A DNA stretch of 64,000 bases. Source: Pseudomonadota bacterium (lineage in GTDB: Bacteria > Myxococcota_A > UBA796 > SXON01). A program made the position numbers and the translations under genes. Shown piece by piece: positions 24,673 to 26,926 of the stretch; position 1 is the stretch's first letter, and each line of letters begins with the position of its first letter. The stretch spans positions 1-64,000 of the forward strand of contig JAUXQH010000135.1 in NCBI GenBank assembly GCA_030685065.1, written 5' to 3'. The notes under the pieces are model-generated. The model did no database searches and had not been told where the DNA came from. It saw only the letters and a program-made list of their open reading frames with translations.

Positions 24673-24726
24673 GCGCAGGACTATCCGACGCCGACCGCGC
24701 GTGCCGACCGGTTACGGTGCCGACCC

Positions 24727-25245
24727 ATGCGGCATTCGCTCTCGCGGTTCGTGGCGGCGCTCGTCGCCGCCTGCGCTCTCTCCGGCGTTTCCGGCGGCCT
24801 GTACGGCTGCAACGGGGCGGCACCGACCACGCCCGAGGAGTGCGCCGCCATGGGCGACGCCCCGGCGCGCGACGAGTGCTACCTGGTCGTCGCGCCGAGC
24901 GTCTTCAAGGCGGACGCCACGGCCGGGATCGCGCTGGTGGAGACGGGCATCTCCGATCCGCTCACGCGGGACATGGCCTGGTACAACGTGACCAAGAACG
25001 TAGATCCCTACTCGAACAAGTACTGCGACCGGATCCAGGACAAGACGCTGGCGGAGCGTTGCCGAATCATCGTGAGCCGCCCGCATCTGCATCGGGAGCT
25101 CACCGGGCAAGGCGGCGGTCCTCCGGGCGGTCCTCCCGGTGGCCCTCCGGGCGGTCCCCCCGGTGGCGCTCCGGGCGGTCCTCCGGGCGGCCCGCCGAGT
25201 GGTGGGGAGCCTGGAGCGCCCCCGAGCGGAGCTCCGCGTCCCTGA
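24727..25245 (+). CDS. hypothetical lipoprotein/secreted protein with Gly-Pro repeat tail
   Basis: MRHSLSRFVAALVAACALSGVSGGLYGCNG; C-terminal (GGPP)n. Confidence 0.6.
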   Translation: MRHSLSRFVAALVAACALSGVSGGLYGCNGAAPTTPEECAAMGDAPARDECYLVVAPSVFKADATAGIALVETGISDPLTRDMAWYNVTKNVDPYSNKYCDRIQDKTLAERCRIIVSRPHLHRELTGQGGGPPGGPPGGPPGGPPGGAPGGPPGGPPSGGEPGAPPSGAPRP

Positions 25246-25273
25246 CCGGGCGGGCTTCGACGAGAGCTGAGCC

Positions 25274-25307
25274 AAAAATGAAGAGCGGCCCCGTGGAGGG
25301 CCGCTCT
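25274..25307 (-). terminator. Rho-independent terminator
   Basis: AGAGCGGCCC/GGGCCGCTCT perfect 10-bp stem (25282-25307) followed on the minus strand by TCATTTTT. Confidence 0.75.
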
Positions 25308-25477
25308 CTATTTCCGCTCGATCAAGGCACCCGATGCGATCGGTGCACGGCGAGCGTTCGGTTGATGGAAAGAGTCCCCCCCGCCATTCCCTCACCGCAA
25401 GAGATGGAGGAGACGCTTGACGTTGCCGGGTGGAAGTCTGCCGGGGGGGACTGAAACCCTTCCTCAACCGCGAGGAT
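25274..25477 (-). ncRNA. candidate structured small RNA (~204 nt), family unknown
   Basis: Minus-strand promoter TTGCCA-17-TACACT (25507-25512 / 25484-25489); CGGUUGA/UCAACCG (25464-25470 with 25359-25365); AGUCCCCCCC/GGGGGGGACU (25443-25452 with 25373-25382); CGCUCG/CGAGCG domain (25351-25356 with 25315-25320); intrinsic terminator. Confidence 0.6.
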
Positions 25478-25483
25478 GATCGG

Positions 25484-25512
25484 AGTGTAGGGCGAACCCC
25501 GAACGATGGCAA
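25484..25512 (-). promoter_or_regulatory. sigma70-like promoter for the ncRNA
   Basis: TTGCCA, 17-bp spacer, TACACT on the minus strand. Confidence 0.5.
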
Positions 25513-25669
25513 CCATAAAAACCCTGCCTGTGACGGATCGCGACTCAAAAGTCGTGGCATGGTTCTTGTCAGCTATTGACGTGTCTGATTTGGCAGGTGC
25601 GCTGGGGATTGTCCACGACCGATTGCGTTCCTTTCAGGCGGGCGGAGCGTAGCTTGTCGGGGCGTGACA

Positions 25670-26926
25670 TCACCAGTCGTCGGTACTCCACCGGTCGGAC
25701 AGCTCGAGGACCGCCGCTGTAAGCAGGGCGGCCGCGGGCTCTTCGACCGCCTCGGGCAGGAGCGCTCCGCGGGGGTCGGCGAGGCGCATGAGCCCGTTCG
25801 GCGCGTTCTCTTCGACCAGTCCTGGGAGCCATTCGGCGCCGGGGTTCAGACGGGTCCACGCGGCGCCCGCGTCCTGAAGGGCCTCGCCGAGCCCGAACAC
25901 GTGGGGGTGGTCCGCGAGCGTCTGTACATGATCGATCTCGCTGGCCAGGACCATCACCGGGAGGTCGGGCCGCGCGGCGACCAGGGCCCCGGCCAGCCGC
26001 GTCCCGTCGCGCTCCGCCCACCAGTCGGCGGCGGCGTCGTGGGTCGCGTAGCCCGACAGCGTCAACCCGCGGGTCGCGGCGGCGTCGAGGAGCGCGGGCG
26101 AGAGCATGACCAGGCCCGTCGCCAGATCCTCGACCCCTCGCACCGTGACGTCAGCGTCGCCACATCCGTTGTCCTCGTCGAGGTCGAAGCAGAGCACGGA
26201 GGGGTCGCCGCTGAGCTCCACGAGTCGCTCGACCGGCAGGTCGCACACGATCCCCGTCGCGCTGGCGAACACGCAGCTGCCGGACCGGTACACCGTGGGC
26301 GTCGCCCCGAGCTCTACGTTGACGAACTGGGGGCCGGCGGGCGTCTCCCACACCACCAGGCCCCGGACGGGGGGCGTGGAGAGCGTGGTGTCCGCGAGCG
26401 CGGCGATCGCGAGGTTTCCGCCGTTCGAGGTCCCGACGACATACAGCCCGTCGGCGTCCGCGCCCGGCACCCGATCCGCGAGCGTGCATCCGCCGAGGTC
26501 GCGCACGTCCCCGGCGGCCCAGCGGAGCACCGCTGCAACCGCGGCGCGGGACGAGGCCCCGCGGCGATCGTTGGTCCCCTCGGTGCGCCCGTTTCCGGGA
26601 AGGTCGAGGTGAACGTCGACGAGGCCGGCGGTCACGTCCACCCGCATCGACGACCGATCGATCGGCGTACCGACGGCATCCCAGGCGCCGTGGACCACGA
26701 GAGCGACGGGCCAGGCCGCCGCCTCTGCCGAGCTCTCGGGCCAGCGCACGTCCGCATGGACACTGCCGCCGGCTCCGTCCGGCACTTGCACGCCGATGGT
26801 GCGGACCCCCAGGTCCACCTCGTCCGGGAGCTGCTCCGCCCGGCAGAGGTCGTCGGCCTCTCCGCTCGTGGGTCGGCACGCGCCGGCGAGGCACGGGAGC
26901 AGCATCAGCGCCGCGCGGCGCGTCAA
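25670..26926 (-). CDS. lipoprotein, alpha/beta hydrolase
   Basis: LTRRAALMLLPCLAGAC lipobox with TTG start at 26926; VVGTSNGGNLAIAAL nucleophile motif. Confidence 0.7.
   Translation of the reverse strand: MTRRAALMLLPCLAGACRPTSGEADDLCRAEQLPDEVDLGVRTIGVQVPDGAGGSVHADVRWPESSAEAAAWPVALVVHGAWDAVGTPIDRSSMRVDVTAGLVDVHLDLPGNGRTEGTNDRRGASSRAAVAAVLRWAAGDVRDLGGCTLADRVPGADADGLYVVGTSNGGNLAIAALADTTLSTPPVRGLVVWETPAGPQFVNVELGATPTVYRSGSCVFASATGIVCDLPVERLVELSGDPSVLCFDLDEDNGCGDADVTVRGVEDLATGLVMLSPALLDAAATRGLTLSGYATHDAAADWWAERDGTRLAGALVAARPDLPVMVLASEIDHVQTLADHPHVFGLGEALQDAGAAWTRLNPGAEWLPGLVEENAPNGLMRLADPRGALLPEAVEEPAAALLTAAVLELSDRWSTDDW

Follow-up and report, generated by a model that had tools for sequence, protein, structure and literature searches.

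The initial annotation had placed a stand-alone structured RNA gene on the minus strand of the window, by which we mean the whole 64,000-nt stretch of DNA that was analysed. The sigma-70-like promoter that it had described, TTGCCA-N17-TACACT, was retrieved by the promoter scan at 25512–25484 (−), with a predicted transcription start at about 25477. It was the sole promoter-like site in the 3 kb between 24000 and 27000, where shuffling expects 0.1. At the other end, the terminator scan recovered the claimed GC-rich intrinsic terminator at 25274–25308 (−), with a stem of 12 pairs (25308–25281) and a terminal CATTTTT. The predicted length of the RNA is about 145–205 nt. The terminator is separated by 36 nt from the end of a convergent small lipoprotein-like gene (24710–25245, +), which is a frequent neighbour of the RNA, with homologues at the corresponding position of up to 27 loci (for example, L059), and may share the terminator of the RNA. 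This protein matched no Pfam family. Its tail is Gly-Pro-rich (GGPPGGPPGG), and similar repeats were found in relatives.

The 207-nt fold had a minimum free energy of −101.3 kcal/mol (z = −5.85), and 0/200 shuffles were as low. Its main feature is a rod on the minus strand. The P1 extension of the outer stem, assigned from sequence and fold, pairs CGGUUGA (25464–25470) with UCAACCG (25359–25365). The main stem, P2, pairs AGUCCCCCCCG (25442–25452, from covariation) with CGGGGGGGACU (25373–25383, from fold and covariation). The pairings named in the initial annotation, CGGTTGA with TCAACCG and AGTCCCCCCCG (25452–25442) with CGGGGGGGACT (25383–25373), were thus confirmed. The rod carries a head with the invariant motif GCGUCUCCUCCAU (25404–25416, −), which is complementary to the Shine-Dalgarno region and in which CUCCUCCAU is mostly unpaired. 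The conserved core (25367–25459, −) was matched end to end by two covariance models, R1 (101.5 bits) and R2 (94 bits). A second hairpin domain (about 25311–25356, −), previously proposed from CGCTCG/CGAGCG enclosing GCACCGAT/ATCGGGTGC, did form in the fold, but comparison with relatives indicated that it is lineage-specific: it was missing from both same-genus relatives (L003 and L004), in which a terminator follows almost directly after the rod.

The initial annotation had named a lack of compensatory substitutions in homologues and a conserved protein reading frame as findings that would speak against an RNA gene. Compensatory changes were in fact abundant. In the alignment of 61 matches (59 distinct), which was fitted to the model and is thereby biased towards the structure, 92.9% of cells were paired and 15 of the 20 pairs showed double changes, with 116 double-change cells compared with 33 after shuffling (0/500 shuffles as high). 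The covariation amounted to 0.380, versus 0.236 for the shuffles, and fell to 0.13–0.15 upon sliding the partners. A MAFFT alignment of 19 sequences gave a weaker signal in the same direction (8 double-change cells versus 3.7 in shuffles, 4/500 as high). P2 was paired in 98.9% of cells over the 59 distinct sequences, with changes on both sides in 10 of its 11 pairs, and the partners in P1 varied among genomes with pairing mostly kept. Pairing in the inner part of the head is ambiguous, since RNAalifold favoured another local arrangement. The sequence GCGUCUCCUCCA in the head, which is the complement of the Shine-Dalgarno region, did not vary among the 55 copies compared and, from CUCC on, was mostly unpaired. 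Similarly, GCGTCTCCTCCA was identical in 55/55 copies, with a mean probability of being unpaired of 0.65–0.91 from CUCC onward (61 copies aligned separately). The distances to the invariant motif were spread over all three phases, indicating that no reading frame is kept, and a hidden protein gene was rejected.

Further evidence was provided by the regions flanking the RNA in relatives. A promoter-like site, mostly with a spacing of 17–18, was present upstream of 30/55 copies, compared with 4.4 in shuffles. With a simple rule, terminators were found within 200 nt in 17/55 copies (5.2 in shuffles), and many copies had no recognised one. The locus is a conserved structured RNA gene with an invariant open loop and a recurrent promoter, and the comparative evidence supports the original description of an undescribed, stand-alone RNA.

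We also compared the locus with known RNA families. No Rfam 15 family reached its gathering score, and the matches that appeared at E values up to 5 were at chance level only. The initial annotation had likened the locus to 6S RNA (RF00013), and the two do share a long rod, a similar length, and the organisation as a stand-alone gene. However, no 6S match was found in 25200–25700 at E up to 5, while 6S was found above cut-off at other loci in 19/60 genomes (27 including weaker matches). Because separate 6S genes occur in many of the same genomes, this resemblance was rejected. In one of them (L086, genome G033), the new RNA (638–728, +) and 6S (1989–2170, −) are 1.3 kb apart. The genome from which the window comes yielded no recognisable 6S. 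Unlike many others of the order, the genomes searched from the window's family (f1) gave no real Rfam 6S match (one was chance-level), and 6S in f1 is either lost or too diverged for the Rfam model. The bacterial small SRP RNA (RF00169) had no match at the locus and was found separately from the new RNA in 16/19 genomes, on contig 110 in the case of the window's genome. Thus, with no model match at the locus and with 6S and SRP RNA located elsewhere, neither these two nor any other Rfam family was retained as its identity.

BLAST against 57 relatives indicated that the rod and head are conserved within the window's family and beyond. R1, which was built from 19 sequences (61 for R2), detected the RNA in 60/63 genomes of the window's order, including 27/27 good-quality ones; the three negative genomes have a completeness of 73–83%. 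There was a single copy per genome, except for one tandem pair in G045 (L076, 2291–2381 and 2644–2737, minus strand, about 350 nt apart), whose relative G024 has one. A search of 379 genomes of the phylum with R1 and R2 yielded no convincing member among the 316 that lie outside the order. Weak matches, each by one model, were obtained in G068 (R1, E = 0.009) and G133 (R2, E = 0.015), and the former was rejected as the stretch lacks the motif. In a pattern scan of 84,980 species, true copies were found, as far as compared, only in records of metagenome-assembled genomes (MAGs) of the order, including UBA796, UBA2385, and UBA2957. The matches checked outside the order scored at most 21 bits, and members in other phyla or viruses were rejected. 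All matching records of the order are metagenome-assembled, and some of its MAGs are filed under wrong names (Klebsiella pneumoniae, Bifidobacterium breve), namely CAMAXZ010000006.1, CAMASI010000045.1, and CALQBK020000024.1 (L123, L140, and L109). A literature search for a described Myxococcota RNA motif found none. From these sequence comparisons, we conclude that the RNA gene is real and represents a new family that is core to one order of uncultured Myxococcota.

As to its function, the RNA is a genuine new order-wide family of a known kind and probably a base-pairing regulator; we infer transcription, pairing with mRNA, and repression. In the most likely reading, to which we assign a probability of about 0.5, the RNA regulates in trans and independently of Hfq, by pairing with ribosome-binding sites. 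The locus would encode a trans-acting small RNA of about 145–205 nt in which the GC-rich rod (P1/P2) presents the head, with GCGUCUCCUCCAU largely single-stranded. This loop would pair with selected mRNAs at their purine-rich ribosome-binding sites (UGGAGGAGAC), and the pairing would block access of the ribosome without the help of Hfq. Hfq was not found above cut-off in 38 genomes, in line with the absence of hfq from Myxococcus xanthus (PMC5684412).

Two features of anti-Shine-Dalgarno small RNAs are present: a conserved, exposed loop complementary to the Shine-Dalgarno region and, as judged from sequence signals, a stand-alone gene with promoter and terminator. The Cuckoo RNAs and the CcsR and SmelA075-type small RNAs of Alphaproteobacteria also have a stem-loop with a conserved anti-Shine-Dalgarno loop motif (CCUCCUCCC), but there the motif recurs in several hairpins, and a DUF1127 gene is often adjacent (PMC3927594, PMC10253847). 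The new RNA has one rod with CUCCUCC and no second such loop in the folds, a longer invariant motif and no Rfam-level relation to them, and it belongs to another phylum; DUF1127 was absent among the six window genes scanned, neighbours in other genomes being read by eye only. MicL of E. coli, which represses the lipoprotein Lpp, would be similar in blocking translation initiation, if lipoprotein mRNAs are targets. MicL itself acts on a single target as part of the sigma-E response (PMC12137417), whereas for the new RNA many targets are possible, the promoter is sigma-70-like, and Hfq was not found. Pxr of M. xanthus is likewise a myxobacterial stem-loop RNA with a function-critical loop in hosts without hfq, but it has three stem-loops and is reported only from fruiting myxobacteria (PMC5684412), while the new RNA had no convincing model match in the phylum beyond its own order.

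The idea that lipoprotein mRNAs are the targets was formed after seeing the data, from a search for the pattern TGGAGGAGAC a short distance upstream of ATG. Two control Shine-Dalgarno patterns of equal length were searched, further hits were fetched for the main and C1 patterns with a preference for short spacing, and one rule set for genuine starts was applied to main and control patterns, in families other than the window's own. The strict lipobox rule was satisfied by 20/36 of the genuine-looking starts preceded by TGGAGGAGAC and by 4/22 controls (Fisher p = 0.005), and a lipobox or hydrophobic N-terminus was found in 29/36 and 8/22, respectively (p = 0.0009); this test is not fully independent, since the 36 starts include the 30 seen first, and the effective number is lower, since several starts are orthologous pairs. 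By eye, about 26 of the 36 were lipoprotein-like. A candidate lipoprotein start sequence is UGGAGGAGACAUG. A second test was performed on 985 genes, obtained with a simple caller from parts of G048 and G000, about 0.6 Mb of either genome. Matches of at least 8 nt to the complement of the loop were found for 6/135 lipoproteins and 8/850 other genes (p = 0.007, a nominal value because several cut-offs were tried; the lipobox rule was also widened between runs). None of 300 loops with altered flanks gave as high an excess, and the canonical anti-Shine-Dalgarno complement, used as a control, matched 0/135 lipoproteins versus 5/850 others. The excess was confined to matches of at least 8 nt and did not reach significance with cut-offs of 6 or 7 nt. 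The energies of the duplexes between loop and start region did not differ between lipoproteins and other genes. As the whole-duplex test did not confirm the excess, lipoproteins can be proposed as the favoured target class only tentatively, and pairing with ribosome-binding sites is held at the even odds given above.

Besides the duplex energies, the lack of any single target conserved over 13 nt speaks against such a regulator, and so does the loop itself: 12 nt without variation across the order are more stringent than usual for a seed that pairs with mRNAs, and would also be compatible with a protein or a fixed RNA as the partner. In the first case, the invariant loop on its rod would serve as a recognition site, and the RNA would sequester or scaffold a protein that binds RNA or associates with the ribosome, according to the logic of 6S RNA without belonging to its family. 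The single copy found order-wide and the strict invariance of the loop do resemble housekeeping ribonucleoprotein RNAs. Furthermore, there is no conserved 13-nt antisense target, since the RNA gene itself is the only place where the complement of the 13-mer recurs from genome to genome. Yet the invariant stretch is an exact and exposed complement of the Shine-Dalgarno region, and the complementary starts were enriched in lipoproteins. Binding of a protein is a possible but rather unlikely explanation. In the second case, the RNA would be a guide pairing with a fixed RNA (ribosomal RNA, tRNA, or a second small RNA) for maturation or assembly, which would agree with a single-copy, order-wide RNA with an invariant loop. 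A match in rRNA or tRNA would, however, recur in all genomes, which no match of the 13-mer GATGGAGGAGACG besides the RNA gene did, and the 18 other matches examined all lay within long open frames. We consider such a guide improbable.

The neighbouring genes bear on a role in cis. Frequent upstream neighbours, identified by reading translations by eye, were lnt, an rlu-type synthase, an alpha/beta hydrolase, and a CheY-like receiver; downstream, we frequently found (also by eye) the convergent small lipoprotein followed by tatA and hutI, tatA having Pfam support in the window. In family f3, mtnA is often the next gene on the same strand, as would suit a leader or riboswitch that controls this gene in cis. 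However, the window's family has a convergent gene in that position, and several f3 copies (L060, L065, L078, and L091) have a terminator downstream of the RNA. The downstream gene is variable among relatives, which argues for a trans-acting RNA rather than a cis element. With neighbours unlike between families, synteny disfavours a cis-regulatory leader, which was rejected as highly improbable. That the locus is nothing more than a bidirectional terminator with chance pairing between convergent genes, as the short distance to the lipoprotein gene could suggest, is refuted by the covariation, and also contradicted by the conservation and the recurrent promoters, leaving it a negligible probability.

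Returning to the regulator that pairs with ribosome-binding sites, a more speculative and rather doubtful extension is that it could be a core regulator of the order, acting with a single invariant loop on many lipoprotein mRNAs at once through their shared ribosome-binding-site code (UGGAGGAGAC) without Hfq, i.e. an RNA-based lipoprotein regulon. Our work illustrates that a comparative search starting from a single candidate can define a family that is absent from Rfam. Little is known of small RNAs in Myxococcota, and a core, order-wide RNA whose pairs covary strongly and whose open loop is invariant offers a concrete handle on Hfq-free RNA regulation; it may also bear on how lipoprotein-rich cells coordinate the synthesis of their envelope proteins.
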